Source: Sinohyriopsis cumingii
Lineage: Eukaryota > Mollusca > Bivalvia > Unionida > Unionidae
Direction: 5' to 3'
Length of the DNA: 64,000 nt
NCBI GenBank assembly: GCA_028554795.2
Contig: CM068826.1
Span: 106,292,602 to 106,356,601, forward strand
Below are positions 42,860 to 62,504 of the stretch, piece by piece (the first letter of the stretch is position 1; every line of letters starts with the position of its first letter). The translations under genes and the position numbers were made by a program. Under the pieces are notes generated by a model that worked only from the letters and a program-made list of their open reading frames with translations, made no database searches and was not told the origin of the DNA.

Positions 42860-43195
42860 TAAATAGGGACGATAGGGGGACAATGGGACTTATCATTAAA
42901 AACACCCCTGGGACGATATAGGGACTATGTAAATTTAACATGGAGAAAACCACTGGGACGATATAGGGACAAGGGGAATTAACATTAGGGAATAGTTCGT
43001 GGGACTGTCTAGGGACAAGGTTAATTAACATGGGGAAAAATCGTGGGACGATATAGGGACAAGGGAAATTGAACATGGGGGAAAAAGTCTTGGGTCACTC
43101 TATTTTTTTTAAAAAAAATAAAAAATGGGGTAGGCAATTGAAAGTCAATCTCTTTTTGAGACCTATGAGTGGCCCTGAAAAGGGCCTTTGGGTTT
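42855..43195 (+). repeat. Polinton left terminal inverted repeat
   Basis: It is about 341 bp, matching 62153-62504 inverted with about six substitutions and one A/T-run indel by eye. It contains four subterminal units of about 45 bp starting TGGGACGATATAGGGAC (42909, 42954, 43000, 43044) and, at its inner edge, a histone-type stem-loop used by the adjacent - strand gene. Confidence 0.95.
43171..43186 (-). promoter_or_regulatory. Histone-mRNA-type 3' stem-loop (SL1)
   Basis: The - strand reads GGCCCTTTTCAGGGCC, matching every position of the metazoan histone stem-loop consensus. It is flanked 5' by CCCAAA and followed 13 nt later by the purine-rich AAAAAGAGATTGA, like the U7-binding downstream element. 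It is 28 nt after the gene 1 stop codon. Confidence 0.85.
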
Positions 43196-43214
43196 CTTCT
43201 TCTTCTAATTTCTT

Positions 43215-43595
43215 CTATTTCTCTACCAACTTCTTATTTTCTGTCCTACACTCTTTCTCTTCTTTTCTTTCTTTTCTTCCTTTTTTTTCCTCTTCTTTCT
43301 TCTTCTCCTCCTCTTCTTTCTTCCTCTTCTGATTTTCTTCTTCTTTTTCAATTTTTTCATTCCATGCTCTTATCCTTATCTTTTCCTCTTCATCCTCCTT
43401 CTCCTCCTTTATTTCTTTCATCACAGCACTTATCATTTCCTTTACTTTTCTTAAGTTGTTAATTTCCATCTTCACTCGATGTGGGCTATAAGAATAGTGA
43501 TCCTCGTTTAACCTCACTAACATTTGCTCCATCGTACCCAAATTGTCCAGGACGTCTTGCAATGTTTTCATTTTATCAAGCTGGTTCGAAGCCAT
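43215..43595 (-). CDS. Polinton end gene 1: coiled-coil protein with histone-type mRNA end
   Basis: The 126-residue protein starts MASNQLDKMKTLQDVLDNLG. It has an amphipathic helical first half and a very long charged helix rich in E and K (residues about 55-126), a probable coiled coil. I know no family for it. The ATG follows a TATA-like CTATAAGAA (43650-43657) and a conserved upstream motif (43661-43687). Downstream, 28 nt after the stop, is a perfect histone stem-loop (43171-43186), not a poly(A) signal. Layout and likely paralogy link it to the genes at 44093 and 44887. The frame is intact. Confidence 0.75.
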   Translation of the reverse strand: MASNQLDKMKTLQDVLDNLGTMEQMLVRLNEDHYSYSPHRVKMEINNLRKVKEMISAVMKEIKEEKEDEEEKIRIRAWNEKIEKEEENQKRKKEEEEKKKEEEKKGRKERKEEKECRTENKKLVEK

Positions 43596-43649
43596 CTTCT
43601 TTTTTTTTTATTCTTTGTAGAATGGTTTGAACGACGAATACTGAGGGTT

Positions 43650-43687
43650 CTTATAGTGAAAGCGCGGACGTGATGGAAAACATCCCC
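43650..43687 (-). promoter_or_regulatory. Shared promoter of end gene 1
   Basis: On the - strand the block GGGATGTTTTCCATCACGTC, then CGCGCTTT, is followed by CACTATAAGAACC. It lies about 60 nt upstream of the ATG at 43595. The same arrangement recurs at 44455-44491 and 45295-45331. A second copy of the upstream block sits at 43730-43755. Confidence 0.7.
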
Positions 43688-44048
43688 CAAGACATAAAAT
43701 TGATATTACCTAGATCATGACCAAACAACGCGCGGACGTGAAGGAAAACATCCCCTACTTTTCTCATTTCATATGATCTACTATTCACTTACGTGAAACA
43801 GCAATAAACAATCCCCAAATCTACTATCCACACACGCAAAGCATTAAAATGAAACCCTAATCTGCTATTCACACTAAGCAACTTAAGCTCTTACATAGCC
43901 CAATAATCTACTATCCACACTAACCTACGTGAGCGCTTACAAACACACACACACACATAAATAAAAAGAGTCAGTGTTTATATTCACACTACTCTACATA
44001 CACACACATTGGCAAATTGATTACTATTTCTTTTCTAAAGGTTTGGGT

Positions 44049-44064
44049 AGCCCTGAAAAGGGTT
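44049..44064 (-). promoter_or_regulatory. Histone-mRNA-type 3' stem-loop (SL2)
   Basis: The - strand reads AACCCTTTTCAGGGCT, followed by the canonical ACCCA flank and AGAAAAGAAATAG as downstream element. One stem pair is mismatched (A/C). Confidence 0.7.
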
Positions 44065-44092
44065 GTTTGTTTTTGAACTCCAGGACACCTGG

Positions 44093-44404
44093 TTAATGCT
44101 GGCACCTTCGTGGCCTGGCACCACACACACATCTTCTATTCCAATCTTTCCAGTTGACTCGTTTGACTGGGAGTGCAGAGGGAGGATGATTAGAATCATC
44201 ACCCCAATCCTCTGTCTCTGGTATCTTGTAAGCCATCCTGTCTCCTATTTTCTTTTCCTCCTCTTCCTTTTGTCTTCTCTCCTCCTCTTTTTTCTTTATC
44301 CTTGCCTCTTCTACTATGGCCTCCGCGGCCAGTTCATTTACTATGCGCCTGGCATATTCCAGGTGTATCTGGAGTTCTAACAGTTTCACAGTTCTGGTAT
44401 TCAT
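44093..44404 (-). CDS. Polinton end gene 2: coiled-coil protein with histone-type mRNA end
   Basis: The 103-residue protein starts MNTRTVKLLELQIHLEYARR. It has a helical N-terminus, a central E/K-rich coiled coil (residues about 33-53) and a C-terminal CVCGARPRRCQH motif with two close cysteines. No known family. The promoter block and TATA (44455-44491) match those of gene 1. The transcript end is the stem-loop at 44049-44064, 28 nt past the TAA. About 80 bp around its 3' end is duplicated at gene 3 (AGAGTCAGTGTTTATATTCA and the following sequence), showing tandem gene duplication. Confidence 0.72.
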   Translation of the reverse strand: MNTRTVKLLELQIHLEYARRIVNELAAEAIVEEARIKKKEEERRQKEEEEKKIGDRMAYKIPETEDWGDDSNHPPSALPVKRVNWKDWNRRCVCGARPRRCQH

Positions 44405-44454
44405 TGTCTTGTCAACGAATGAACAGGGTAGTTAGACTGCCCAGTGATTTTCAG

Positions 44455-44491
44455 TTTATAGTAAAAACGCAGACGTGATTGAAAACATCCC
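44455..44491 (-). promoter_or_regulatory. Shared promoter of end gene 2
   Basis: The - strand block GGGATGTTTTCAATCACGTC, then TGCGTTTTT, is followed by TTTACTATAAACTG. A second partial block is at about 44532-44550. Both are separated by the sequence TTACCTAGATCATGACCAAA (+ strand), which is also found upstream of gene 1. Confidence 0.68.
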
Positions 44492-44844
44492 TAAAACAAA
44501 ATTTATATTACCTAGATCATGACCAAACAAAGCGCGGACCTAAAAGAAACACTCACTTTTTACTATGCAATGCTAATTTAAAAATTTTCATTAATCACTT
44601 CAATATACTATTCACATACGCAAAGCAATCCAATCAAACCCCAAATCTACTCTCTACTCACGTAAGAAAAAAACATGATCATAATCTACTATCCACACAA
44701 ACCTACTTGAGCACTTACAAACACACAATCATATACACAAACACATACGCTCACACTATAAAAAAGAGTCAGTGTTTATATTCACACTACTCTACCTACA
44801 CACATTGGCAAATCGATTGTTATTTCTTTTCTAGAGTTTGGGGT

Positions 44845-44860
44845 AGCCCTGAAAAGGACT
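44845..44860 (-). promoter_or_regulatory. Histone-mRNA-type 3' stem-loop (SL3)
   Basis: The - strand reads AGTCCTTTTCAGGGCT, a full 6-bp stem (one G-U) with a TTTC loop. It is followed by ACCCC and AGAAAAGAAATAAC. The changed stem positions still pair, which suggests selection on structure. Confidence 0.75.
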
Positions 44861-44886
44861 GTTTTTTTGTTTCCTATGGCAATCTT

Positions 44887-45246
44887 TTAGTTTCTAAGAA
44901 TGCGACGTCCTCTGAGGATATACTTTCTGACGATAGGTCTGCTTCTTCGGAAAGAGAAGAACTCTTTGGTGTCGATACGATAATCGACAAAGCTTCTCTC
45001 AGGTTCAGGTTCCTGCTGCTGCTGCTGTTGTTGCTGCTGCTGCTGTCTCTGAAGTCTGTACTTCTCTGTCCATTCTTCTTTCTCCCTGTTCACTTCTTCT
45101 CTGAAGAGCTCTTCTATCAGGTCTTCAGTGACTTTTAACATTCTCACATTCTCTATCTCTTCAGCTTTCGGTATCAGACTGTGTCTGACCCTATGCAAAT
45201 TCACGTAGGCTTCGTTTAGCTTAGCTAGTTTGGAGCACATCTTCAT
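44887..45246 (-). CDS. Polinton end gene 3: coiled-coil, poly-Q protein with histone-type mRNA end
   Basis: I start at the ATG at 45246 (MKMCSKLAKLNEAYVNLHRV), although the frame is open to 45369, because the shared promoter block lies inside that extension (45307-45331). The 119-residue protein has a helical coiled-coil region (residues about 5-60), a run of 11 glutamines (an interrupted CAG/CTG trinucleotide tract, about 45014-45050), then a basic C-terminus with SFRRSRPIVRKYILRGRR, a likely nuclear-localisation or nucleic-acid-binding tail. No family is recognised. The stem-loop at 44845-44860 follows the stop by 26 nt. Confidence 0.7.
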   Translation of the reverse strand: MKMCSKLAKLNEAYVNLHRVRHSLIPKAEEIENVRMLKVTEDLIEELFREEVNREKEEWTEKYRLQRQQQQQQQQQQQEPEPERSFVDYRIDTKEFFSFRRSRPIVRKYILRGRRILRN

Positions 45247-45294
45247 AGGAGGATGAGTCGACAATGGATGGTTTGACTGGAAACTGCCCCGGTT

Positions 45295-45331
45295 CTTAAA
45301 CTCAAAGCGCGGACGTGAAGGAAAACATCCC
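45295..45331 (-). promoter_or_regulatory. Shared promoter of end gene 3
   Basis: The - strand block GGGATGTTTTCCTTCACGTC, then CGCGCTTTGAG, is followed by TTTAAGAACC at the position where gene 1 has TATAAGAACC. It decides the start codon at 45246. Confidence 0.68.
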
Positions 45332-45454
45332 TCCACGGTTTTCGAGCCGGAACGATCAATGAGTGTCATGAGAGAGATAGAGAGAAGTCAAAGACCATGA
45401 ATCAACATTCTTATAGCCAAACAAAAGACAAAGGCATTTTTTCAAAACACGTTT

Positions 45455-45460
45455 TTTATT
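45455..45460 (-). terminator. Poly(A) signal for the morphogenesis module
   Basis: AATAAA on the - strand lies about 145 nt after the protease stop, followed by ACGTGTTTTGAAAAAA. The same AATAAA-ACGTGTT arrangement recurs at 53812-53817. I noticed no other clear AATAAA on this strand between the genes of the module, which suggests nested 3'-coterminal transcripts. Confidence 0.6.
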
Positions 45461-45605
45461 CAAAAATCAATTAACACTAACCAACAACTCTAACATTTTT
45501 TAACAATAATCCAACAATATAACATCAAACATTTTTTTTAAATGACAAACATTTTTTTCAATTCACACTCTACTTTAAACAGGGCTGACAACGTTGTGAA
45601 TGAAA

Positions 45606-46130
45606 TTAAGATTTCCACTGTTGGAAGTCATTAGGCCATTGATGGACACTACGTTTCCTAGCTTGAGACAAAAGATAAGCATAATGGTCACAAAACCATC
45701 GATCTACTTTCACATCATTTCTGGAAGAAGAACGAGGATCAAAATGAGTCACTAAATGTTCTAAGGAATAGCCCAGGCTGCGATGATGCAGAAAATACAC
45801 ACAATATTGTCCACACACCAAGGAATCTGTGCCTTGTAATTTCACATTATTGAATCGGGTAGTCTGAGCATTTCTTCTCATAAAGTCGATGATGTCGTCT
45901 TCCAAAGGGGGCAATCCGTACGAATCGAAATATTCCACACATCCTTCTTCAGGAAAGTAGACGGCTACCCAATGGGTTCCTGGGAGATGACTGTCGTCCG
46001 TGTTGATGACATAAGCTAGATGGTCTTGAGGTTTGCGATGAGGGAGTTCATCTTTAGCACAGACGACAGGATTCCAAGAAGCCGTATACGAACTGTGATT
46101 CAAAAGGTAATAAAGTTCCCAGGTATCCAT
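45606..46130 (-). CDS. Adenain-like cysteine protease (capsid maturation)
   Basis: The ATG at 46130 (MDTWELYYLLNHSSYTAS) is chosen; the frame is open 8 codons further but only from a GTG. The protein is 174 residues, in the usual range for Polinton/adenovirus-type proteases (ULP1/C5 fold). Visible catalytic elements are His in GTHWVAVYF, Asp in EYFDSYG, the oxyanion Gln in LQGTDS and the nucleophile Cys in CGQYCVYFL, in the correct order. It should process capsid precursors. No stop or frameshift is seen. It is the last gene before the module's poly(A) signal. Confidence 0.92.
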   Translation of the reverse strand: MDTWELYYLLNHSSYTASWNPVVCAKDELPHRKPQDHLAYVINTDDSHLPGTHWVAVYFPEEGCVEYFDSYGLPPLEDDIIDFMRRNAQTTRFNNVKLQGTDSLVCGQYCVYFLHHRSLGYSLEHLVTHFDPRSSSRNDVKVDRWFCDHYAYLLSQARKRSVHQWPNDFQQWKS

Positions 46131-46150
46131 TTGTGTGGTTTTTTTCTTCT

Positions 46151-46651
46151 TCACAGGTAATAATAAATCATCAATTCGATCCTGACTTTTTGCTTGAAAA
46201 TGTCTGACAAATAACCGTTTCTTCGTTTCGTCTCCTCACTCTGATTCAGGACAGCCTCGATATGATGGATCTCTTGAGTGGTTAATGGTGGACAAGAATG
46301 TTCACGCAAGTCTTTATACCACTGATGCAACACGACTTCGTCCGAGATGAGACTCCAAGCTTCGTCCAGATACTCGTTCAATTTTTCTTCTTGACTCAAC
46401 ATCAGGCATTTATCGTGTTGAATTTGACTGGGATGATCGTTTTGACATCCATAGCAATCTTTCTTGATCAATTCCGTCATTTTTTCGACCAAGTGTTTGG
46501 CAAAACAGGAGACTAAATGGGCTTCTTGTTCTGGCCATCTTGACTTCATCATAACTTCGTCGTCTTTGTCTTGGGATTCTCCTTCCACGGTCTCCTCACA
46601 TTCCATCTCCAAAGTTTCTCCACTAGGTAAAGAGGGATAACAGTCTTCCAT
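46151..46651 (-). CDS. Polinton protein of unknown function with a Cys/His motif
   Basis: The 166-residue protein starts MEDCYPSLPSGETLEMEC. It has an acidic N-terminus (to about residue 35), a central CYGCQNDHPSQIQHDKC motif that could bind zinc (C-x2-C, then H and C), and a helical C-terminus. Proteins with this C-x-G-C...HPSQ..H..C motif are, as far as I recall, frequent in metazoan Polintons near the capsid genes, but no function is established. It sits between protease and major capsid gene and is intact. Confidence 0.72.
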   Translation of the reverse strand: MEDCYPSLPSGETLEMECEETVEGESQDKDDEVMMKSRWPEQEAHLVSCFAKHLVEKMTELIKKDCYGCQNDHPSQIQHDKCLMLSQEEKLNEYLDEAWSLISDEVVLHQWYKDLREHSCPPLTTQEIHHIEAVLNQSEETKRRNGYLSDIFKQKVRIELMIYYYL

Positions 46652-46656
46652 GGCTT

Positions 46657-47964
46657 CTAATAGTCTAGAATGACTTCTCTCAAACTGTTGATTTCTATGG
46701 TATTATCGAATTCGGCATACAGGAGGACGTTCACCGTCTCTGTTAGATTTGTAGTAAACTGAATTTCCACACGAATCTGGCCAGATTTTATAGGGTGGAC
46801 ATGTCCCTCGTCGCTGCCTTCGTCTAGAGTGAAATCGAAAGCCCACAAAGCGTAGCCTCCTGCGTAATCCTCGTACGTGATGCCGTGACTGGTGTTGGTT
46901 CCTAACTGACCGGTGGCTTCGTACAGGGACAAGTACGACCTCAAGTAATTCTTCTTGTCAAAGTTAGGTTCGAAAGGTCGGGTACACAAGGTCTTGCCAT
47001 CGCGACTGACTTCGATCTTGGACACGTCAAAGTGTTTAAAGTGGAAAGGATTTTTGGCCAAAGCTCCGTTGAAGGCTGCATTCTCGACGATAACAAGGAT
47101 CAAACGTTTGGGCAACTGTCCTTGGAACAGATGATCTTCGATCATGGATCACAGCCCCGTAGGAATGGTGAAGGTTTTCACTTCCACGCGTCGTATGGGA
47201 TACTTGGCGGTCGTTCTGCTCAACGTCTGACTGATGTCGTTACCCACTTTAGGTAACACTTCCACGCGTCGTACGTAGAGCCTGGCTTCCTCGATGACAG
47301 TTTTGCAAGCACTAGTACCTATCAAATGGAAAGCGGCACTACTATGATTCAGTCTCAGGCGGAGATTCACTCCGTTCAGCAAATACTTTTCTTGTAACCA
47401 CATGTCCAAATGCAAACGATCCATCAGTTCTAAATTATCTCCACTATTGATTCTGTCTCTTCGTTCTACAAATCCCGCATTGTGTTCTTTGGTTGTATTA
47501 ATTTCGAATTCTTCAAACTGGCCTGCATCGTCAGCTTCCCATACCACACAGGCATTGAGATGAGTGTTCTTGGCGTCTATTCCGTACGTCAAGAGATTTT
47601 CCAGGCACGCTCGATAAGGGTAAGTATCCATGCTGCTACTGACTAGTTTGTTATTCAAGTACAAGTCCACTCCACTGAACAAGGAATGCATGAAATTGTT
47701 GACGGGAGCTATTACCTCATCACCATCTAGGGGCGTATTATCCTCATCGACAACTTTGACTTTCAGGTACAAGTAACTGCTATTCAGATCGATGTAATCT
47801 TCGGGCTGTCCTTTGATTTCAAAATCGATGGGAGCTGAGGCTGTCAAAGAGGAGACGGGATGAAATTCCACCCACTGGGATTCTTGCATGGTCATCATGG
47901 TGGGGGGCATGGCAAACAGATCCAGTTCCGACTTGGAACAAGCGCAAGATTCTCGGTGCATCAT
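46657..47964 (-). pseudogene. Major capsid protein (hexon-like double jelly roll), one nonsense codon
   Basis: The family is the 'F54H12.2-like' Polinton/adintovirus major capsid protein. Matching blocks are VEFHPVSSLTASAPIDFEI, EDYIDLNSSYLYLKVKV, LFSGVDLYLNNKLVSSS, TYPYRACLENLLTYG, AKYPIRRVEVKTFTIPTG, LFQGQLPKRLILVIV, FNGALAKNPFHFKHF and YEDYAGGYALWAFDFTLD. The full length is 435 codons. A TGA at 47149-47151 separates the two jelly-roll halves, and the frame is otherwise open. The start is the ATG at 47964; the frame extends 5 codons to a non-ATG codon that overlaps the stop of the upstream gene. Confidence 0.93.
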
Positions 47965-47975
47965 TTTGTTCTTTC

Positions 47976-48401
47976 TCAATAATCGAAAACGTCTAAGTCT
48001 CGAACGGTTCTTCTTTTCTTTGTCTTTCTAGCTTTAGACGTGTGAAGTCTGGTGAAAGGGTGTTTTCTTCGTCGTCTCTTTCTGCCTTGTCCTTGCTGAA
48101 TGCCTGACTCGGTAGCGTGCAGGGCATTTATAGGTGTTTCTCGTCGGCCTAAAAGGTCTTTGCCCGTTTGCAGCAAGACATTTTTGCCTGCCCTCATGAA
48201 GGCTTCTTTAGGGTTTTGTTTGTCGATGATGACATTTTGGAGAAATTCTTTGCCGTGTGTCAGTGCCGTATCTTTCAAGGCGTGCAATCCGCGGGTCACC
48301 ATCGGTTTCAACACCGGGGCCACCGAACGAAAGGCCGATTTTAACATATCTCCTAAACCGTGTCCTCGCTGTCGAGCAACCCCTCGGTACACTGGATACA
48401 T
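47976..48401 (-). CDS. pX-like basic minor virion protein
   Basis: The 141-residue protein starts MYPVYRGVARQRGHGLGDML. A glycine-containing amphipathic hydrophobic segment (residues about 15-35, GDMLKSAFRSVAPVLKPMV) and a C-terminus dense in Arg/Lys (RKRRRRKHPF, KARKTKKRR) resemble the adenovirus pX/core-like proteins described for adintoviruses. It probably binds DNA in the particle or acts on membranes. It is placed directly before the major capsid gene, has a 3-nt gap to the penton gene, and is intact. Confidence 0.72.
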   Translation of the reverse strand: MYPVYRGVARQRGHGLGDMLKSAFRSVAPVLKPMVTRGLHALKDTALTHGKEFLQNVIIDKQNPKEAFMRAGKNVLLQTGKDLLGRRETPINALHATESGIQQGQGRKRRRRKHPFTRLHTSKARKTKKRRTVRDLDVFDY

Positions 48402-48404
48402 GAC

Positions 48405-49337
48405 TTACGAGTCGTGAGAGAACCGTTTTCGAAAATGGAGTTTCACCATGACTTTTCCTTTGGTGAATGGAATATTTTGTCCCAAATCTCCTTTTATAGC
48501 AATGTTGACCGTGTCCAAATAAGACTTACTGACAGGCAAATAGTGAGGATGTACAAATTCGCGGTGAACGTGGTAAGTGTTTCCACCTTCCTCGTCAGCG
48601 TTCGTGGCAGAATCCACTTTGAAAGGAATGACACGCAGTAACGGTACGGAGGTGTGTCCCACCACGTTGTACTCCACCACATCATTGTACACAAACATCA
48701 AATTCAGTCCTTGGTTCAGTTCTACCGGGGAACGAAATAACTTGCTAAAAGACTCGTTGTCGTAAACGATTGGTAATTCGTTTTTCTTGATCATGGCCAT
48801 GCTCATGTCCATGTCTCCGCCCAACATGTCAAACAATTCAGGACAAAATAAAATGGACACGATTTTACTCCCGTCAAATTTCATCGAGAAGCGACGAGCT
48901 GCTTTGTGGTATTCCATAGTGACACTTTTTTTGACACTTTCCAAAGCTTTCAGAAACACGACATTAAACCTGGAGGCAATGGTGCTGACCAAATGTTGAC
49001 CACTAAAATAATAGCCTGGGGGAATGAACAAGTGATAGGTGGTGTACTTTTGATTTTTTGTGCCAGGGGTTTTCCTGTCATATTTGCCATGGGTATCCAA
49101 GTACTGTTGCATTTGCTCGTCATAAACTTCCACATCAAAAAAGTTTTGATTGGGAAGGACATTGAGGACTTGGGTCGGGTGAATGATTTCCACTAAAGAC
49201 ACTTCCCAATGGGCTTCGTGATCTAAGGGGATGGCGTGAGGTAATTTGACCGTGTAACAGCACAACGTGTTGTTGGGAAACACCTCCATGGAACTGTCAC
49301 TGGGTAAGGTTAAGTAAAATTGGTTTTGGTGACTCAT
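48405..49337 (-). CDS. Penton-like minor capsid protein
   Basis: The 310-residue protein starts MSHQNQFYLTLPSDSSMEVF. The N-terminal pattern FY.TLPS....FP.NT....TVKLP followed by HWEVSLVEIIHP is characteristic of the single-jelly-roll minor capsid protein of Polintons, which forms the vertex pentamers. A conserved C-terminal half includes FVHPHYLPVSK and VMVKLHFRKR. The frame is intact. It overlaps the upstream membrane-protein gene by 4 nt (ATGA), which suggests coupled expression. Confidence 0.88.
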   Translation of the reverse strand: MSHQNQFYLTLPSDSSMEVFPNNTLCCYTVKLPHAIPLDHEAHWEVSLVEIIHPTQVLNVLPNQNFFDVEVYDEQMQQYLDTHGKYDRKTPGTKNQKYTTYHLFIPPGYYFSGQHLVSTIASRFNVVFLKALESVKKSVTMEYHKAARRFSMKFDGSKIVSILFCPELFDMLGGDMDMSMAMIKKNELPIVYDNESFSKLFRSPVELNQGLNLMFVYNDVVEYNVVGHTSVPLLRVIPFKVDSATNADEEGGNTYHVHREFVHPHYLPVSKSYLDTVNIAIKGDLGQNIPFTKGKVMVKLHFRKRFSHDS

Positions 49338-49750
49338 AATTCCAGAGTTCGGTAGCTGTCCGAGGGGTTACTGGACGTCAGAGGTGTGTCTGCGCCCAAA
49401 ATGGGGTTCTTGTTCTTGTTATTGGAGTGGTGACTGGCACTGGCACTGGACACAAGGTTCCCGTGGTTCCCGTTGGAAGAGAATTTCAGGGAGGGATTGG
49501 GAAGCAGGTAACCGATGCATCTGCTCAATAAAATGGTCCACAATTGTTTGTCTCCTTGTTGCAAACTCAAATTGGCGATGGCTGCCCCGATGACACAATA
49601 CACCACGAAGATTTGGCAGAAAAAGACGATTTGCGTTTTAGGCACACGTTCTCCGCACCACACCCACAAGGGTTGTTTTTGTAAATCTTGCACAGAAGAA
49701 CTGGGTGAAGGAGTGGTCGAAGTAGCTGCGTCTGTGTGAAAAGGCATCAT
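49334..49750 (-). CDS. Small membrane protein of the capsid module
   Basis: The start is the ATG at 49750 (MMPFHTDAATSTTPSP), giving 138 residues. A Ser/Thr-rich N-terminus precedes PLWVWCGERVPKTQIVFF and a single transmembrane helix (QIFVVYCVIGAAIANLSL), then GDKQLWTILLSRCIGYLLPNP and a polar Asn/Ser-rich tail. The combination VPK..IVFF..QI..VY...I..NLSL..GD..LW..LLS...GYLLP.P is a recurrent small Polinton ORF beside the penton gene; its function is unknown. The frame is intact. Confidence 0.78.
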   Translation of the reverse strand: MMPFHTDAATSTTPSPSSSVQDLQKQPLWVWCGERVPKTQIVFFCQIFVVYCVIGAAIANLSLQQGDKQLWTILLSRCIGYLLPNPSLKFSSNGNHGNLVSSASASHHSNNKNKNPILGADTPLTSSNPSDSYRTLEL

Positions 49751-49752
49751 GG

Positions 49753-50861
49753 TCACTTCTTTTTATAGTCGATGACTTGCGAAGCGTCGATCCAATAATC
49801 AAAACTGGGTGGATATCCTTTCCAACGTACTTTGACTTTTTTGACACGTCGTTTGCCCACTTTACGGGTTCTGCGTTCGAGAATGCTTTCGATGTCGTAC
49901 ACGTCGTCTTCTTTTTGGTGACACGTTGTAACTCGGGCAAATAAAACGTTCCTTTGAGCACTTCTCCGTTCATGTCTTCCAATTTATAGACGGCAGGATG
50001 ACGGCCATGCACTCGTCCAGTGACACGAAACAACTCGGTCGTCCAGTTAGGTAAGTAACCTTTGTCGAAAGTGTGTTTGGTTTTGCCAATGCGCACCCAA
50101 TCTCCTACGGCCAACTCTCCACTTCTCTTGGGGACAGCCCTCGTCTGGGACATACCAAACAGGCGCTCAAACACGAGCAGTTCGTTGTCGGGAGTCACGT
50201 CTTGCGGGGCACATCCGATGCTTCGATGGTAAGATTGGTTGTACGCTTGCACCAGGTGCGGTAAGATGTCGATGTACTTCAGAGTGTGGTGATGCGTAAA
50301 ATATTTCCACATGCGTTCTTTCAAAGTGCGTTGAAAAGGTTCCACGATGCTGGCTTTGGTTTCGGGATTCTCGGTGGTAAAAAAATGAATGTCACGTTTC
50401 TTTAATTCTTTTTGGAAAGCTTGGTTCAGAAATTCGGTACCTTTGTCCGTTTGCCATCGAAAAGGGTGACGACCGCTTTGTTTCAACACCCGTTGCAGGA
50501 CTCGCACTAACTCGCTGCTCGATTTGGAAGTCAAGGGCACGACCCAGGCAAATTTGGAAAAGACGTCGATGACACAAAACAAATATTTGTAGCCGCGATT
50601 GTAGCTGGTCAAATGAGAGACATCGGCTAAATCGGCTTGCCATTGATGATCGATGCCTTCCACTCAGGTGCGACTTCTGGAAAATTTGCGTCGAATGGGT
50701 TTGTGTAAAGTGTAGGTAGCTTGTTCTTGTAACCATCGTTGCACTTGAGGTAAACGGAGACTTTTCAGTCGCATTTTGGCAGCACGATACAATTTTTGAA
50801 CTCCTGCGTAACCTGCAGGATGGGAGGGATCGTAGTAAATGCTGGCTAAGACTTTTTCCAT
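49753..50861 (-). pseudogene. Retroviral-type (DDE) integrase with chromodomain, broken twice
   Basis: It starts MEKVLASIYYDPSHPAGYAG, the normal Polinton integrase N-terminus. TGA at 50664-50666 (codon 66) interrupts it. The rve core follows with Asp in WQADLADV, Asp in WQTDKGTEF and, 35 residues later, Glu in KASIVEPF. After YLPELQRV a one-base frameshift in an A-run near 49915-49922 shifts the last domain to another frame. There it reads VYDIESILERR and VKVRWKGYPPSFDYWI, a chromodomain, ending TGA at 49753-49755. The enzyme integrates the linear genome with 6-bp duplications. This copy cannot make it whole. Confidence 0.93.
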
Positions 50862-50879
50862 TTTTTGTTTGTTTGTGTG

Positions 50880-51531: not shown

Positions 51532-51546
51532 CTTCAGAGGGCCTTT

Positions 51547-53811: not shown

Positions 53812-53817
53812 TTTATT
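53812..53817 (-). terminator. Poly(A) signal for the replication/accessory module
   Basis: AATAAA on the - strand, 8-13 nt past the stop of the 53825 gene and followed by ACGTGTTCTGAAAAAA. This is nearly the same downstream sequence as at 45455-45460. Confidence 0.65.
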
Positions 53818-53824
53818 GAATGTT

Positions 53825-54356: not shown

Positions 54357-54565
54357 GTTGAATGGGTGGTAAATACTGTCCACAAGGAATCGGCTGGTAA
54401 ACGAAATCCCAGAAAACAAGTCACTAAGACACACACCACTTGTCGACCCAAATTGAATGGATACAGTTCTTGTAATAATCGATGGTAATGATCCACGGTT
54501 TGAATATGGTCATTGAGTTCCTTGCACGGAATCTGTTGGATTACATGCGATAATAGTCGTGGCAT
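54353..54565 (-). CDS. Small Polinton protein, unknown
   Basis: The 70-residue protein starts MPRLLSHVIQQIPCKELNDH, with a hydrophobic stretch VVCVLVTCFLGF. It lies within 4 nt of the next gene and overlaps the 3' end of the 54510 frame by 56 nt. It may be a real overlapping gene or part of its downstream neighbour after a frameshift. I cannot decide. Confidence 0.4.
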   Translation of the reverse strand: MPRLLSHVIQQIPCKELNDHIQTVDHYHRLLQELYPFNLGRQVVCVLVTCFLGFRLPADSLWTVFTTHST

Positions 54566-55028: not shown

Positions 55029-55050
55029 GAACAGATTATGGTAAGTTACT

Positions 55051-55686
55051 TCAATGTCTCGGTCCCACTAAGGGTAAGTAATGACAATTCGGTGACCATC
55101 GAGCATGTTCTACGTAGGCTGAATCTTGCGGTTCCCAGTGGTGAAGTGACACACCGCAACTGAAGCACTTGACTTTATCTCCTTCGTCCAAGTAGAAAAA
55201 TCCGGCTCTGGCTAATTCTTCGGGGGTCGGTCCTCCCAGATACTTAGACCATTTTCCTTTGAACGATTGAAGACGATTTTCAAAGTCGCAGTATTCAGAC
55301 AAACGCACAGGAAACGAATATTCGTCTTTCACAGGTTCGTTTCGATGAGGGTTGGGTGACATGGACAGGAGTTTGCTCAGAGCTGGATGACATCCGTAGG
55401 GGGGTAGACGTGAAGGTGAACATTCACCTTTAAAACGAAACCCAGTAAAATGTCCAAGAGGATGAGCGGCATCGCTTTCGCATCCCTCAGGTTTGACACG
55501 CACAGCATCACTTTCCATGATAGGGGTAGTGAGAACAAAGTCCCCACGATGCTTTACGGCATCGCTAAGGTCACAACGTACAGCATCGTACCCATCGCAA
55601 GGCTCACAATCGCATTCCACTTCAGAAGCCCCACACTTGAATTGTGCCTTTCTAAACTTGTTTTGTGTTTCTCTGAAAGTATTCAT
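55051..55686 (-). CDS. BIR-domain (IAP-like) protein 1
   Basis: The 211-residue protein starts MNTFRETQNKFRKAQFKCGA. It has a Cys-rich N-terminal third (VECDCEPC) and one C-terminal BIR domain at about residues 136-204: NRLQSFKGKW at the start, LARAGFFYLDEGDKVKCFSC, and a Zn site of C174, C177, H194, C201 (AYVEHARWSPNCHYL). No RING domain. BIR proteins bind caspases or regulate inflammation and division; many invertebrate DNA viruses carry them. A TATA box (GTATAAAAAG, 55741-55750) lies 55 nt upstream of the ATG. Intact. Confidence 0.88.
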   Translation of the reverse strand: MNTFRETQNKFRKAQFKCGASEVECDCEPCDGYDAVRCDLSDAVKHRGDFVLTTPIMESDAVRVKPEGCESDAAHPLGHFTGFRFKGECSPSRLPPYGCHPALSKLLSMSPNPHRNEPVKDEYSFPVRLSEYCDFENRLQSFKGKWSKYLGGPTPEELARAGFFYLDEGDKVKCFSCGVSLHHWEPQDSAYVEHARWSPNCHYLPLVGPRH

Positions 55687-55740
55687 CTTGTTCGCTTGGT
55701 CTTGGTAGTCACAATGAACTATCGATCTTGACCATAGTCC

Positions 55741-55750
55741 CTTTTTATAC
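55741..55750 (-). promoter_or_regulatory. TATA box of BIR gene 1
   Basis: GTATAAAAAG on the - strand, in the gap between the two BIR genes and overlapping the end of BIR gene 2. Confidence 0.65.
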
Positions 55751-56203
55751 TAGTCGCAATGCAATCTCAAGCTTGTACATCGTTCCTTTTTTATGTTTTT
55801 TATGTTTAGTTTTGGAAGGTACCGTCTCTAAGGTGCCGTCATGATTGTACCGTACTGTCATGGGTGGAAAGGCCATAGAAAGGTAAGGACAGTGCGGAGA
55901 CCATCGAGTATGTTCCAGAATAGCTGAATCTTTGTAGATACAGAGATCCATTCGTAACTTCAGTCCGCAAGCGAAACACTGTACTTTGTATCCCAATCCT
56001 GACTCAGGTCCCAAGTAGACAACTCCTGTTCTAGCTAAAATATGCGAAGAAGGTAATCCTTTCCTATCCGTAGGCCATGCTTGAAACGTGTCCAATCGAC
56101 AGGCACAATCACAATAGTCAGGCAAGAAAACCGGAAAAGGGTAGGCTTTGAACTTGGAGTTCTCATCGGTTTTCTCACTCGATTCTTGCTGTGGCGAAGT
56201 CAT
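55745..56203 (-). CDS. BIR-domain (IAP-like) protein 2
   Basis: The 152-residue protein starts MTSPQQESSEKTDENSKFKA. A single BIR at about residues 33-108 has RLDTFQAWP, LARTGVVYLG, KVQCFACGLKL and AILEHTRWSPHCPYL, with Zn ligands C76, C79, H98, C105. It ends in a basic tail (KTKHKKHKKG). No RING. TATA-like GGTATAAAA at 56239-56247 precedes the ATG by 36 nt. Its strong resemblance in plan to the neighbour at 55051 suggests tandem duplication followed by divergence. Intact. Confidence 0.88.
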   Translation of the reverse strand: MTSPQQESSEKTDENSKFKAYPFPVFLPDYCDCACRLDTFQAWPTDRKGLPSSHILARTGVVYLGPESGLGYKVQCFACGLKLRMDLCIYKDSAILEHTRWSPHCPYLSMAFPPMTVRYNHDGTLETVPSKTKHKKHKKGTMYKLEIALRLV

Positions 56204-56226
56204 CCTTCTGGTGGGTGGCTATCCGC

Positions 56227-59200
56227 TTACAACCAATGTTTTATACCAACATGTCCATACGGCAAAGTAAAGTGGTTGGGCAGTCGCACCCGCTTCTGGT
56301 ACACGATTTGATAGACTTTTTCCAAGGGTCGACTGACGATGTGGTGAGTGGGTAAACGTACAATCTTGTTCGGTTGATAGGTGGTCACTTTAAAGTGTTC
56401 ATCCTCTCCCGATTGCAAGGCTTCTTTCAATACCCCAAAGTTGACCACACGACTGGTACGATAATTTAGAGTCAGTCCTTTCACTTTGCACTTCGTGTGC
56501 ACTTCTCCTTGTTTGTCCCGGTATTCGTAGCCGTAATTTTTTGGACCGCCACTGACGAAACTTAGAATCTTGTCGTCAGGATCCTCGTCTGTCCAGGCTC
56601 CTAAACGGTCTCCTTCGATGTCAGGGTGCTGTTGACTCGGGTGATGGATGTAAATGCAACTGTCCGTGTCAAAGTACAGGACGCGTTCCCCTAACAGTTC
56701 TAAAGCTTAGTACAATTTTAAGCGAGCATGGGCTGTCACGTAAGCCGCAATGATGACATTTCCAAAAGGGTCGTCTTGCACAAGGTCCAGATCTTCTTCG
56801 TAATTGACCAAGATCAAATCCTCACGAACGACGTCCACGTGTTTCATGTATTTGGTTTTGTCGTGAATCATCTGGAAGTAGCGGGAAGGTTCTGTCAAAT
56901 ATTCCGTCTTGGGTAAACACGGTCGTTGTGCCATTTTACCCCACAAGCAATTTAACATCACTTTGGCAAACGATCGCCTGCCTTCGTTTTTCTCGATGTG
57001 GTCTAAAGAGATGCCTTCTTGTTCATAGTATTTCTCTTTGAATTTTATTTGGTGTTCGGGAGTGTGACACCAGGACGGATAGCGGCTGGCTTCTTGCTTC
57101 AGTTTCAAAAAGGCATCCACGTAGTCAGCGAAAATGCCTTTCTGACTGGGGTCACCCTTGTGGTATTGTTGTGTCTTGGGAAAGTGACAAATTTCGTACA
57201 CTTCTAACAGTTGGTATCTTATGTCCAGAGCTTTGAACAATTCTACGCTGACCCAGGTTCCCGTCAAAGCCCGTTCTTCCTGGGTGTGCTGACAAGGCTG
57301 ATCTTGGTTGCACGTTTCGGCACAAGTACGGCACAAAGGAAACATCAGTTTGCCTTGGCAATGGTGAGGTAACACGGGATGGTACAAGTCCGTGGGAGGC
57401 AAGACTTTGCACTTGATCAAGCCTTCGTATTGTCGAATGTTGACCAGGTCGATGTGTTCCGTCAACAATTGCGGGTGCCCTACAGGAAAGCGACAATATT
57501 TGCACACGTAGGGATACAGCACACGTCCAAGTATTTGATTTCTTCTCCTTTCTCTTCGTCGTCTTGGTACAGCAAACAGGTGGCATTGGTCCTTCCTCCG
57601 TACAAACTATCCCTCGGGTTCAGGGGGTCCATGAACTGATAACTTTCCACGAGGCGTTTAAACTCGGGATCGGTTTTCAAACGGTGATCGTACTCGTGTT
57701 CCCACATTTCCACCACTTGGTTTCCTTCCTGTTCTAACTTTAGGCGTCGCTGACAAGTGTCCTGGTACAAGTCTTCCATGGTTCGTTGTAAAAACTGATT
57801 TTTAGTGTCGCGGTCAGGGTAACAGACGGGACCATCCGTGAAATAAGCAACCGTTAAACTCGTACACGATCTTGGGGTTTTCTAAGTCCCAACCATCGAC
57901 CGAATGCGTTCCGATGGTCTTTTCGCCTCCTCCGTTGCGGGCATGCTGAATCCATTTGTCTTCCTTGTCGCACAAGTAAAGTAACCAGCGTAGGGCTTTG
58001 ACCGAGTATTGACGTTTGACATAGTTGGTCGTTTGAGGACTGATGACAGCCACGGTGTTTTCAGGCATGAATCGTTGCCGGTACACTAAGGAACACGCTT
58101 TGGCAATGGTGCAAGCTTCTTTCAAAGGATCGACCCCTCCGTGTTCCATGAACAGTTCTCGAAATTTTCCACAGCAACGCCGTAAAATGTCCACGTCGGA
58201 ACGACAATACTTTAGCATTTCTTCCTGAAAGTCGAAAGGGTCCGAGGCGTGAGCCTGGTACCAAGCGTAGAAAGCTTCTCGTTGTTCGGTACGCATGTTG
58301 TCGGGGTCGTAATAGTGAGCCACAGGTAAATGGGGTAGAAAGGCGTGTTGATTGGCTTCCGTATTGAAAAAGTGTGGAAAGTACCCTTTAGCCATTTCTG
58401 TCATTCCAAACGTTTTAGGCATTCGGCTCAAAGGCATGGCCAAGTAACTCATCGAATCTTTAAACTGTACTTGTCCCACTTGCATGAAAATGATTTTGGC
58501 TCCGTTCAAAGTCACTTTAGGACGTTCGGTGCCATGTTTCGTATAGTATCTGAGAAGAAACTGTCCATCGTATCCGGAGAAATTGTGAGCCATCACTGTG
58601 GCATGACCATGACAATCTCCGTAACGTTCGATGTCCTCTTGGCTCCACGTCTTGTCGATGGGGTCTAAGACCCATCGAGCGAAATCGGCTAGCGTGTTCG
58701 GCCCTCGAAAAATTTATTCACGTCCTCCAGGAATCTTAATGCAGTGAGGGCAATAACTCAAGATAGGTTCTTGAATGCACTTCTCGCACGCTCGATGAGC
58801 CACGCAGAAATTAGGAATGTGAATGCCGGTCCCTTGCATGCATTCGAAATCGAAAAAGATGAAATTGCCTTTCTTCTTCTTGTGACCATCCTCTTTCTCT
58901 GGTGGGGGTTGGTATTTTTGCACGTAGCACTGGTGTTCCAAGTCCACGATGTGATGACAAATGTGACATTTTTTCTTTCCTCGACATACGTGTGCCTTGA
59001 CAGTATTGGTACATAGGCCTTGTCCACAGGTAGGGCACAATCTCAGGAGTTGACAAGCACATTTCTGCTGTGAACTTTGCGTCTTCAGATGTTGTTGGTA
59101 ACAGGCAGGGCTGACAAACGTGCGCAGACAAGCAGGACAATGTACTCTTTCTTGTCCTTCGCTCAGACAGGGTGGAGAGGCCAAACATCCTGAGCATTTC

Positions 59201-60270
59201 AATCCGCAATGTTTGTGTTGCTCTCGATTATTATAACCATGGTCACATTTCTCACAGTAATAACCGTATCCCAGGAATGCAGTGATACTAGTAATGGTAT
59301 GGAAATGTTCATCGTGATAATAGACATGAATGTATTTTCCGTCCTTAAAGTCTTGGCCTCGAAACAACAGAGGTCCGCGCACTTCTTGAGGGTGCACTTT
59401 CAAGGTGTAGCGTGGAGCTAGGGCATCTTGCAATTTTTGCATTTCAGGAATGCCGCAGGGTGTGTCTTTGGATAGGCCAGCTTGTTGTAACAGGAGTTCT
59501 GCTTCACTTCGTTGTTGGCTCGGTTCGATTTTCGAATGTTCTCCCAGGCTCTTTTCCATTCTGTCGTGTCGTTCTTGTTGGCATAGGTTCGTCCCACCAC
59601 GATGGCTCGGGCTAACACATCTGGTCTTGAGAATTGTGAATTTGGACGAGGCTACGCTTAATGCTGCGAAGGTAGTTCACCAGTAACACCTTATTGCGTT
59701 GTCCGGTCCCTTGAGGAGGAGAAACATGGGTCATGTCCAGTGTGGATTTCGATCGGTGATGTCAAACTGGTCATTAGATTGTTGCACGTGTTGATACTTG
59801 TCCATAACTATGGGAGCAGTTAGTTCTGCGGGTCTGCTAAACTCGATCCAAACAGGGGATTTCAAACCGTCGTGTTGTATGGAAAGTCTCAAACGATCGT
59901 CTTCTTTGGGTTGACATTGTCGCTTGAGTGTGGTGAGTAAAGAATCCCACACCCTGGTGATGAACCCTTCTGCTTTCTCTAACGGTACTTCGGACTTGAA
60001 ATTTTTAAACTTCACCGTGTATTTGTAAGCCGTGGTTCTAAATTTTCTAGAGGAGCGCTTTTCTGTCTCACGAATGTCATAGTTCTTTTCAGGGTTGACT
60101 AAGGGTGGTGAACTTTGTTTAGAGGGTTCGGATTCTGGTTCACTCATGTCCTCTTCAAAATCACTGGCATGAATTTGTTCCAAGACTTCAGCCCTGGTAC
60201 GAGGCGATAGATCACGTTTCTGCCTCTTACTTTCTTCTTCTTTCTTCTCAAATGAATTGGATCGTTTCAT
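56227..60270 (-). pseudogene. Protein-primed family B DNA polymerase, several nonsense and frameshift changes
   Basis: About 1,350 codons from the ATG at 60270 (MKRSNSFEKKEEESKRQKRD). The N-terminal region (60270-59731) has SSRKFRTTAYKYTVKFKNF and MDKYQHVQQSNDQF. After a shift near 59733 comes QRNKVLLVNYLRSIKRSLV, and after another near 59620 LARAIVVGRTYANKND; one more shift is near 59530. Zn-finger blocks lie at about 59260-58930. Exonuclease motifs are FFDFEC (58857-58840), AHNFSGYDGQF (58590-58558) and YCRSDVDIL (58209-58183). Polymerase motif A (YLDVC then LYPYVCKYC) is at about 57540-57490, motif B KVMLNCLWGK at 56964-56935, and motif C DTDS at 56670-56659. Breaks are TAA 58714-58716, a frameshift near 57845, a frameshift near 57520, and TAA 56707-56709. 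Confidence 0.93.
56239..56247 (-). promoter_or_regulatory. TATA box of BIR gene 2
   Basis: GGTATAAAA on the - strand lies inside the 3' end of the polymerase gene, 36 nt before the BIR gene 2 ATG. Confidence 0.6.
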
Positions 60271-60340
60271 CTTGAGTGAAAAACGTCAAGTGACGAAAGT
60301 TTAAACACCATAGACTAATTTATTGTCATGGCAAACCAGC

Positions 60341-60350
60341 GTATATAAAA
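60341..60350 (+). promoter_or_regulatory. TATA box of the + strand zinc-knuckle gene
   Basis: GTATATAAAA followed by GGG lies in the divergent gap between this gene and the polymerase gene. Transcription would start near 60372-60380. Confidence 0.7.
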
Positions 60351-60356
60351 GGGTGT

Positions 60357-60845
60357 GTGTCTTGTCCTTTCACTATTCATTTCTCTCTCAAACCGAGCAC
60401 AACGACGGAAGAGACTAGCCAAATCGAACGTTTCATCAGAGCTTTGCGAGGGGTCATTAGAAAATTCTCTTCAGACCAGCCGACGGACTACTCTCCTTCC
60501 TTTCGAGATAAAAGTCAAGATACTTGCTATATCTGTCAGAAGAAAGGGCATTGGTCTTCAGAGTGTCCAGACCGTCAAAAAAGAAAAACAGGGGTTAAAA
60601 GAGACAAAAGTCAAGATACCTGTTATTATTGTCAAGAAAAAGGACATTGGTCTCCAGATTGCCCAAAAAAGAAACAAGAGGAGTCAGAAGAAGAGAGGGA
60701 TTCTTCAGAGAAAGAAGACGAAGAGGAAGAAAGCAGACATGTGAAGAAAAAGAAACAGGAGAAGAAAAGAAGAAGGGAAGAAAGTGAGGAGGAAGAAGAG
60801 GAAAAGACTGTGACAGTGAAGAAATTGAAAAAACAGAGAGAGTAA
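60357..60845 (+). CDS. Double zinc-knuckle (CCHC) protein, divergent from polymerase
   Basis: This is one of the few + strand genes of the element. The frame has two retroviral-nucleocapsid-type knuckles, CYICQKKGHWSSEC and CYYCQEKGHWSPDC (C-x2-C-x4-H-x4-C), each preceded by DKSQDT, so one probably arose from the other. A long E/K-rich tail (residues about 98-162) follows. It should bind single-stranded nucleic acid. There is no in-frame ATG. The frame is open from a GTG at 60357, which lies upstream of the expected transcription start, so the start codon may have been lost (an ACG at 60402 or 60405 is a candidate). AATAAA at 60927-60932 ends it. Confidence 0.7.
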   Translation: MSCPFTIHFSLKPSTTTEETSQIERFIRALRGVIRKFSSDQPTDYSPSFRDKSQDTCYICQKKGHWSSECPDRQKRKTGVKRDKSQDTCYYCQEKGHWSPDCPKKKQEESEEERDSSEKEDEEEESRHVKKKKQEKKRRREESEEEEEEKTVTVKKLKKQRE

Positions 60846-60926
60846 ACAATGAGATAGAAGAAGTCTATGAACTTTTTAAAGTGCTCTGTTGTGAATTGTG
60901 AATTGAATTGTAACTATTGATAAAAG

Positions 60927-60932
60927 AATAAA
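60927..60932 (+). terminator. Poly(A) signal of the zinc-knuckle gene
   Basis: AATAAA, 82 nt past the TAA at 60843-60845. Confidence 0.65.
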
Positions 60933-61041
60933 TTAATTATATAAGGTAAGTGTCTTTGGGTTTTGATTTTAAAATAAGAACGTACACTCACGCACTCATA
61001 CACAGACACGTACTATAGGGGTAAAATGGTTCTTTTTTTTT

Positions 61042-61692
61042 TTAGTTATTGGCAATTGAAAGTCGATCTCTTTTCGAGAGATTGGGTGGCCCTGAAAAGG
61101 GCCTTTTTTGGTGTAGGGGTGAGTTTAAGCAATCAACTTTAACTGCCTTAAGACCTTTGCCACGGCCAAGGCCTACTTCTGGACTGCGTACTGTTGATGA
61201 TGATGATTTGGTTGAAATCACTAAGGGTGGTACGGCAGGCTTAGTCACAGGGTTGACGTGTTTAGCTCGGGAAGGTCGTATTCTCTTCGGTCGTAATAAA
61301 GAAGTCTGATACATTTGTTTCAGACTTCTTAACTCCGCTAAAATGTCCAACAGTACCGTGACCGTTTGATTTTCACCCTCTTGTTTCTTTGCTGCTACTT
61401 CTTCTTCTCGTTGTTTTTTTCTTACCTCTTCTTCTTGCTGCTGTTGCTGTAGGAGAAAAGCTTGTTCCGCTTCCTTTTGTCGTTGTATAAATTTCTCCAA
61501 TTCTTCTTTCTGTCTCTGTCTAAAATCCTCCACTTGCGGTAATGAAGGTTACAAAGGTTCCGGAACAAATTCTTGCGAGGTAAGAAAATCCACAAAATCC
61601 CAATTTACCTCTTCTGAAAGTAAGTCTGGGTTCCCTCGGGCGGTCTCCACTGCTAGTGCACCCCAATGGATCGTTTTCTGAGTTTCCGTCAT
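61042..61692 (-). pseudogene. Polinton right-end gene: acidic activation-like segment plus coiled coil, one nonsense codon
   Basis: The ATG at 61692 (MTETQKTIHWGALAVETARG) lies 48 nt below a TATA box (61740-61747). The N-terminus has an acidic amphipathic stretch, EEVNWDFVDFLTSQEFVPEP, resembling transactivation segments. A TAA at about 61549-61551 follows, after which the same frame continues with a coiled coil (DFRQRQKEELEKFIQRQKEA, then a Gln run and charged heptads), a helix ILAELRSLKQMYQTSLLRPK and a basic tail. The histone-type stem-loop (61088-61103) lies inside the present reading frame, unlike in the other end genes. The original stop was therefore probably upstream of it and lost by a small indel. 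Confidence 0.68.
61088..61103 (-). promoter_or_regulatory. Histone-mRNA-type 3' stem-loop (SL4)
   Basis: The - strand reads GGCCCTTTTCAGGGCC with CAAAAAA before, the canonical ACCCA after, and CGAAAAGAGATCGAC as a purine-rich downstream element about 13 nt on. A perfect consensus match. Confidence 0.85.
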
Positions 61693-61739
61693 GTTGAATC
61701 ACTGTCACATAGATTGACTGCACACAGGCGCTAGCGAAT

Positions 61740-61761
61740 CTATATAGACCACGTGACGTCA
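61740..61761 (-). promoter_or_regulatory. TATA box with E-box and CRE of the right-end gene
   Basis: On the - strand TGACGTCA (CRE) overlaps CACGTG (E-box) at 61750-61761, directly before CTATATAG (61740-61747). This is a compact promoter different from the shared one of end genes 1-3. Confidence 0.65.
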
Positions 61762-61911
61762 CAGACTGGTCTCTTCGGATTGGATGAGGGCTGACTGAAT
61801 TTTGTAACCCGTGTTTTGATTGGTGAATGAACTCAATCCGTTTCAATCCTACCTCTACCTAGAAATAAGCGCAGTTCACTGAATTGATTCACCTGTTCTC
61901 GGCGCCTCAAG

Positions 61912-62136
61912 ATGTGGACCGATGTGCAATCTTCTACGCTTATGTCTTCAATGATGTTCCGAACGGACATACCCATGTATGTCCGATCCAAGTTGACAGT
62001 TGTCCACAGGACAGACACCAGTCTGTGGATACGTAGGATCTACGTAGAAAGACAAGGATGCCTCAAAAGAGTGCTGATTTACGGTCCTACAGTGAGACGT
62101 AGCCTAAGGACAAGAAGAAGACCAATGCGGTGTTAA
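61912..62136 (+). CDS. Polinton right-end + strand small basic protein with histone-type mRNA end
   Basis: The 74-residue protein starts MWTDVQSSTLMSSMMFRTDI and ends in an Arg-rich stretch (TVRRSLRTRRRPMRC). No family is recognised. It is supported by position: its stop is 25 nt before the perfect histone-type stem-loop at 62162-62177 on the same strand, the same spacing seen for the genes at the other end (26-28 nt). Its promoter is unclear; the palindromic CTATATAG at 61740 could serve both directions. Confidence 0.5.
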   Translation: MWTDVQSSTLMSSMMFRTDIPMYVRSKLTVVHRTDTSLWIRRIYVERQGCLKRVLIYGPTVRRSLRTRRRPMRC

Positions 62137-62152
62137 TGTATCCATTAACATA

Positions 62153-62504
62153 AAACCCAAAGGCCCTTTTCAGGGCCACTCATAGGTCTCGAAAAGAGAT
62201 TGACTTTCAATTGCCTACCCCATTTTTTATTTTTTTTTTTATTTTTTTAAAAAAAATAGAGTGACCCAAGACTTTTTCCCCCATGTTCAATTTCCCTTGT
62301 ATCTATATCGTCCCACGATTTTTCCCCATGTTAATTAACCTTGTCCCTAGACAGTCCTACGAACTATTCCCTAATGTTAATTCCCCTTGTCCCTATATCG
62401 TCCCAGGGGTTTTCTCCATGTTAAATTTACATAGTCCCTATATCGTCCCAGGGGTGTTTTTAATGATAAGTCCCATTGTCCCCTTATCGTCCCTATTTAC
62501 TACT
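62153..62504 (-). repeat. Polinton right terminal inverted repeat
   Basis: It is the inverted counterpart of 42855-43195 and about 352 bp long. The extra length is in the A/T run near 62222-62258. It ends ATTTACTACT directly before the TACATG target duplication. Confidence 0.95.
62162..62177 (+). promoter_or_regulatory. Histone-mRNA-type 3' stem-loop (SL5, right TIR)
   Basis: GGCCCTTTTCAGGGCC on the + strand, preceded by CCCAAA and followed by CGAAAAGAGATTGAC. It is the inverted counterpart of SL1, so each TIR supplies a 3' end to the gene reading outward into it. Confidence 0.83.

Follow-up and report, generated by a model that had tools for sequence, protein, structure and literature searches.

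To our knowledge, mRNAs that end in a stem-loop and lack poly(A) have been described in animals for histones only. In the processing of animal histone pre-mRNA, SLBP sits on the stem-loop, the 5' end of the U7 small nuclear RNA (snRNA) pairs with a downstream element whose purine core, AAAGAG, matches CUCUUU in U7, and CPSF73 cuts between the stem-loop and this element (PMC7026596). Adintoviruses are defined by a family B polymerase (PolB) with an N-terminal OTU-like domain and an integrase with a chromodomain (PMC11071296). Here we analyze a stretch of 64,000 nucleotides from the bivalve Sinohyriopsis cumingii (assembly GCA_028554795.2, contig CM068826.1, positions 106,292,602 to 106,356,601; hereafter the window), which contains a Polinton/Maverick element of 19650 bp at 42855-62504. 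An earlier note on this DNA had proposed that the genes at the two ends of the Polinton use 3' ends of the histone type. At the level of sequence this interpretation is supported: the pairing of the stem is conserved, and three of the five sites exceed the threshold of RF00032, the Rfam covariance model of the histone 3' stem-loop. Judged from the nucleotide sequence, the end genes carry each cis part of histone processing in the host's own form, and it is very probable that they would end their transcripts through this host-type signal, by way of SLBP and U7, as mRNAs without poly(A).

A pattern search of the window recovers all five stem-loops listed in the earlier note, each with its coordinates and strand, and we label them A (43171-43186, -), B (44049-44064, -), C (44845-44860, -), D (61088-61103, -) and E (62162-62177, +). 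Sites A, D and E read GGCCCTTTTCAGGGCC and score 38.7 bits (at 43146-43191), 36.5 bits (61064-61108) and 37.5 bits (62157-62202) with RF00032, all over its gathering score of 34 bits, with E-values of 8e-8 to 6e-7. Site B reads AACCCTTTTCAGGGCT in the window copy (21.3 bits at 44024-44069) and AGCCCTTTTCAGGGCT in 11 of 16 class B copies; site C reads AGTCCTTTTCAGGGCT (22.0 bits at 44820-44865). The appeal to the covariance model is borne out for A, D and E (36.5-38.7 bits) and not for B and C in the window copy. Each stem is followed by a cleavage-site region and a purine element of the U7 type: ACTCA and AAAGAG 16 nt past the stem at A (43146-43170, -) and E (62178-62202, +), ACCCA and AAAGAA at 16 nt at B (44024-44048, -), ACCCC and AAAGAA at 16 nt at C (44820-44844, -), and ACCCA and AAAGAG at 15 nt at D (61064-61087, -).

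Four of the sites had been placed 25-28 nt past a stop codon, and counting agrees: A lies 28 nt past the stop of gene 1 (43215-43595, -; 126 amino acids, charged and coiled-coil-like by eye), B 28 nt past that of gene 2 (44093-44404, -; 103 amino acids), C 26 nt past that of gene 3 (44887-45246, -; 119 amino acids from the likely start) and E 25 nt past that of gene E (61912-62136, +; 74 amino acids). Site D stands at the presumed end of the right-hand gene on the minus strand, whose open reading frame (ORF; 61042-61533, -) runs through the stem-loop without a stop in the window copy. A chance origin of the stem-loops was set aside on the RF00032 scores and on shuffle counts: the 16-nt pattern, with up to three mismatches, has 7 matches in the window, shuffles average 1.02, and 0 of 100 shuffles reach 7. 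The two matches beyond the five sites, at 41470 and 42352, fall outside the Polinton. Sites A and E occupy the inner edges of the two terminal inverted repeats (TIRs; left 42855-43195, +, and right 62153-62504, -, 97-99% complementary) and are copies of one and the same site; they are accordingly not independent by descent. In a self-comparison of the window, the sequences surrounding A, B, C and D prove to be partly related repeats.

The histone genes of the host, found with PF00125, lie in tandem clusters with a period of about 8.3 kb on many small contigs (e.g., G000:C14:13099924). The 3' ends of two of them were read, which from their C-termini we take to be one H3 and one H2B gene. The H3 gene is followed by GGCCCTTTTTAGGGCC-ACACA (RF00032 35.9 bits, AAAGAG 16 nt past the stem) and the H2B gene by GGCCCTTTTCAGGGCC-ATACA (38.2 bits, AAAGAT 16 nt past the stem); their stems begin 28 and 34 nt past the stop, respectively, by count, and the 3' signal shared by the two is GGCCCTTTT[T/C]AGGGCC. 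The register of 16 nt is that of A, B, C and E, with D at 15. In blast comparisons of these histone 3' regions with the Polinton ends, significant similarity spans just 40-53 nt at the signal. The Polinton sites resemble the 3' ends of replication-dependent histone mRNAs in having a 6-bp stem with a loop of 4 nt, a cleavage region of the ACCCA type, a purine element at 15-16 nt and a position 25-28 nt behind a stop, and they share their core letters and spacing with the one H3 and the one H2B gene read in the host. Unlike histone mRNA ends, they follow genes of a mobile element that do not encode histones, and most B sites and site C have a basal A-U pair in place of G-C. From the cis signal, its upkeep, its match to the host histone genes and its gene context, we infer that the same host machinery would process the end genes; the proposed pairing of U7 with the Polinton sites is drawn from the host histone genes alone.

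A search of the 2.9-Gb host genome with RF00032 scored 75 places out of 589472 first-look candidates, which are not a census, and all of them were fetched with 1.5 kb on either side. In every one of the 75 loci the sequence is that of an end of this Polinton family (best piece median 85% identical, range 73-96%, shortest best piece 241 nt). The statement that none of the stem-loops belongs to a histone gene holds here as well, tblastn with the core histones H2A, H2B, H3 and H4 giving no match in any of the 75 loci of about 3 kb. The all-Polinton outcome comes in part from the ranking of candidates, in which two checked host histone sites stand below the 69 best. Because this ranking shapes the scored set, the conservation counts were drawn from sites that are not themselves the RF00032 match. 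Among 14 control genomes, one gave a signal in the RF00032 search, and it was below the cut-off. After two sites at locus edges were dropped, the non-picked set comprised 79 sites, including the five of the window. All six pairs are intact in 65 of them and at least five pairs in 77, and AAAGAG or AAAGAA starts 15-17 nt past the stem in 71.

The first 48 loci together with the window gave column profiles of classes A, B, D and E, with 19, 17, 30 and 34 rows, of which 16, 0, 9 and 23, respectively, had been picked by RF00032. Conservation in class B is 0.971 in the stem-loop, 0.976 in ACCCA and 0.982 in the purine element, against 0.809 in the spacer and 0.797 in the bases next after the element. 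Classes A, D and E give 0.98-0.99 for the stem-loop, 0.81-0.87 for the spacer and 0.956-0.974 for the purine element. Class B reaches 0.917 further downstream, and the upstream stretch in B and D is at 0.89; since the wider flanks are also well conserved, in these two classes just the contrast with the immediate neighbors is informative. As read from these alignments, two conserved blocks flank a spacer whose letters vary and whose length is nearly fixed, a bipartite pattern like that of histone pre-mRNA.

More distant relatives were sought by scanning an alignment of the capsid protein against one genome per species from 84,980 prokaryote species. Four contigs matched (L009-L012), presumably animal DNA in bacterial bins. 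One of them, L011, a distant Polinton contig with a capsid 32% identical, carries a stem-loop of 35.8 bits, over the RF00032 threshold, 28 nt behind the stop codon of an ORF of 89 amino acids with C2H2-like motifs (by eye). AAAGAG follows at 16 nt, and the stem-loop adjoins short repeats that by eye look terminal. L011 was included in a covariation alignment of 54 sites (with 48 non-picked sites and the five of the window; 30 distinct), in which 94.4% of cells are paired, a value as high as in none of 500 shuffles. Of the distinct rows, 13 have A-U and 12 G-C as the basal pair. Pairing of the stem is thus kept in related copies, the point on which the earlier note had staked its interpretation: stem, loop, purine element and spacing are all conserved, in distant L011 as well.

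Three of the genes ahead of the stem-loops are constrained at the protein level. Against 52 copies, gene E shows 414, 184 and 1072 changes at codon positions 1, 2 and 3 and a ratio of non-synonymous to synonymous changes (N/S) of 0.14 of expectation. The ratio is 0.22 of expectation for gene 1 (12 copies) and 0.28 for gene 2 (18 copies); gene 3 has no copies among the 75 loci and is absent from these counts. For comparison, a core ORF (59731-60270, -) gives 0.32 (26 copies), and a CCHC ORF (60357-60845, +), taken from a GTG start, gives 0.72 (26 copies), indicating weak constraint, unlike its neighbors. The window is one of the two sequences in every N/S comparison, and the values are not mutually independent. 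The substitution pattern points to protein-level constraint on end genes 1, 2 and E. No Pfam family was found for three end ORFs of the window, gene 1 among them, and gene E has a single relative among 5.8 billion proteins.

The earlier note had also set the end genes apart from the capsid and replication modules, and the poly(A) signals follow this division, with AATAAA behind the core block and the CCHC gene and none close behind the end genes. The scan covered AATAAA and ATTAAA on the gene strand. Neither occurs within 480 nt past the stops of genes 1, 2, 3 and E, up to the element tips, and neither occurs past genes 1 and E as far as the element tip; the next one, at 43612, lies 481 nt past gene 2 and more than 1.2 kb past gene 3. 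On the core side, AATAAA is present at 45455-45460 (-), 146 nt past the protease-like ORF that closes the core block (ending at 45606), and at 60927-60932 (+), 82 nt past the CCHC gene, and it is on these two genes that the core-side contrast rests. The end genes may have dual or switched 3' ends, with the stem-loop used in cycling cells and poly(A) added elsewhere through weaker or non-canonical signals outside the two motifs scanned. Such use of two modes has been reported for a histone gene, H2A.X (PMC7807067), and it overlaps with the reading preferred here; the lack of AATAAA and ATTAAA past genes 1 and E inside the element speaks against it, and we hold it as a tentative possibility.

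If the preferred reading of SLBP- and U7-dependent ends is right, SLBP would bind the stem-loop of an end-gene transcript, the U7 small nuclear ribonucleoprotein would pair with the purine element AAAGAG/A, and CPSF73 would cleave about 5 nt past the stem. The outcome would be a capped mRNA that lacks poly(A) and rises and falls with SLBP; expression of the end genes would mostly be limited to times when SLBP is available, in S phase and possibly in oocytes or early embryos. With the core block ending in an ordinary AATAAA, the element would produce two classes of mRNA under different 3'-end control. Mobile-element genes using the histone signal would, if this is true, break the histone-only rule, and a virus-like element would have a simple means of coupling its expression to host DNA replication. 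It would also explain why RNA-seq with poly(A) selection would miss the end genes of Polintons.

Several observations count against this reading. Sites B and C fall below the RF00032 threshold in the window copy. To locate a site in a copy, blast gave the expected place, and the 16-mer most like the stem-loop no more than 170 nt away was taken, a procedure that favors finding one. The letters AC stand directly past the stem in 63 of the 79 non-picked sites, and in class E in just 11 of 25. In the covariation alignment, shuffles were as high in 387 of 500 cases for pairs with a change on both sides and in 484 of 500 for further pair types; two of the five covariation measures are not above shuffles, and the structure shifted by +1 still pairs in 65.6%. 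The covariation is essentially one basal-pair difference that separates the paralogous sites B and C from A, D and E. No U7 gene was found in the host genome with RF00066, a result that is uninformative because the control genomes also gave 0. Among the four distant contigs matching the capsid, the stem-loop is present in L011 alone; L009 and L012 end before the relevant region and L010 has no TIR, so that these three are uninformative, not negative.

The signal might also be a relic, a host histone 3' end that was captured once, spread by duplication and TIR homogenization and is now functionless. The placement of A and E within one shared TIR and the partly related repeats around A to D would fit such a history. 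A functionless copy does not account for a stem-loop and purine element better conserved than the spacer in four site classes, for a register nearly fixed while the spacer letters vary, for a basal pair that is swapped as a pair, or for sites that stand behind ORFs on the gene strand and recur in a contig with 32% capsid identity, and we consider it improbable. Alternatively, abundant stem-loop transcripts could act as a decoy that titrates host SLBP and U7 and disturbs the provision of histones while the element replicates. The presence of several sites in each element and of many copies would suit a decoy; three of the genes before the sites are under protein-level constraint, which a decoy would not need, and this explanation is very unlikely. 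Least credible is a role of the palindrome at the DNA level, by which the ends of the element would replicate or transpose, as the inner TIR edge position of A and E might suggest: three of the sites (B, C and D) are not part of the TIRs, the two others are separated from the tips by more than 300 nt, all five sites are in gene sense, and the conserved one-sided purine element, which matches that of host histone genes, would be superfluous for a DNA palindrome.

Whether SLBP/U7-dependent ends extend beyond this host is, in our judgment, evenly balanced: Polintons and adintoviruses of several animal lineages may produce a histone-type class of mRNA from small "early" or host-facing end genes, tied to S phase through SLBP and U7, and this would be the first non-histone protein-coding case in animals. 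Hairpins at mRNA 3' ends are known from giant viruses, whose transcripts undergo virus-encoded processing and carry poly(A). The Polinton ends are like these in having hairpins at the 3' ends of mRNAs and unlike them in carrying the host's histone signal. In a search mainly of the open literature, we found no earlier description of histone-type 3' ends in Polintons, adintoviruses or transposable elements, and an earlier report is possible. The words "stem-loop", "hairpin" and "polyadenylation" are absent from a text on adintoviruses (PMC11071296), and these three and "histone" are absent from that on vertebrate Mavericks (PMC8097293).

The element at 42855-62504 is a Polinton with broken reading frames. 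Read by eye, its tips are 5'-AGT...ACT-3' and it is flanked by a 6-bp target duplication, TACATG, at 42849-42854 and 62505-62510. A Pfam scan of 20 ORFs of the window identified an rve integrase (PF00665, 2.9e-13) and a family B polymerase of the viral or organellar type in two pieces (PF03175, 8.5e-15 and 8.7e-17) within it. An adenovirus-type protease-like ORF (PF00770, 15.2 bits versus a cut-off of 21.3) and an A32-type ATPase-like ORF (PF04665, 22.6 bits versus 22.8) fall just short or short of their cut-offs. The N-terminal piece of the capsid protein has 773 relatives; among the 120 listed, those with names are mostly "F54H12.2-like", bivalve proteins included, a name that we take to denote the Polinton capsid protein. 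The capsid gene is split here into two ORFs (46657-47145 and 47149-47964, -), and the longer relatives have 430-440 amino acids. The TIRs, the 6-bp target duplication, the length of about 20 kb, the rve integrase, PolB and the capsid protein are shared with Polinton/Maverick elements and adintoviruses; unlike these as described in the papers searched, the end genes of this element carry 3'-end signals of the histone type. No OTU domain or chromodomain was matched by Pfam among the 20 ORFs scanned, the frames being broken in the window copy.

No relatives of the capsid were found in IMG/VR or in a phage collection. A strict stem-loop pattern has 0 matches in IMG/VR; a looser one has 3, none of them over the RF00032 threshold, and by their ORFs two lie in phage-like coding stretches. 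A U7-like pattern occurs at 6 places in the host genome, compared with 17 for a reversed control. The best-looking candidate, at G000:C13:13576116, resembles by eye a decayed Polinton site B in antisense and gave no match to the U7 model; of the other five, two have weak matches (16.4 and 16.0 bits versus 34) and three none, and they lack a convincing 3' hairpin. All six were rejected as not credible. On L010, a Bathymodiolus-symbiont contig, a weak match to a twister-P1-like ribozyme (28.9 bits versus 67.2) lies at 11731-11795, downstream of the capsid match.

The regions upstream of the left end genes have the repeat GGGATGTTTTCCTTCACGTCCGCGC in common (43646-45331, -; three close copies and one diverged). 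Written as GGGATGTTTTCC(T/A)TCACGTCCGCGC, this promoter-region repeat has two copies before gene 1 (43646-43754, -), one before gene 3 (45307-45331, -) and a diverged copy before gene 2 (44451-44491, -); 3 matches with up to three mismatches were found versus 0.00 expected. Between genes D and E (61694-61912) are found TGACGTCA, which resembles a cAMP response element (CRE), and CCAAT-type boxes, and the stretch ahead of the stem-loop gene of L011 (842-1160) has TGACGTCA three times and ATTGG once. Chance alone gives one TGACGTCA per window, so we treat these motifs as only a lead. The CCHC gene encodes two zinc knuckles and lies inside a duplicated block. The Polinton core also contains two adjacent ORFs with BIR (inhibitor of apoptosis) domains at 55051-55686 and 55745-56203 (-; PF00653, 2.2e-22 and 1.6e-12). 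The whole Polinton is nested in a second element, 38005-63633, with inverted ends at 38005-38166 and 63472-63633; by eye, the ORFs of this outer element resemble reverse transcriptase and tyrosine recombinase, as in DIRS-like elements.

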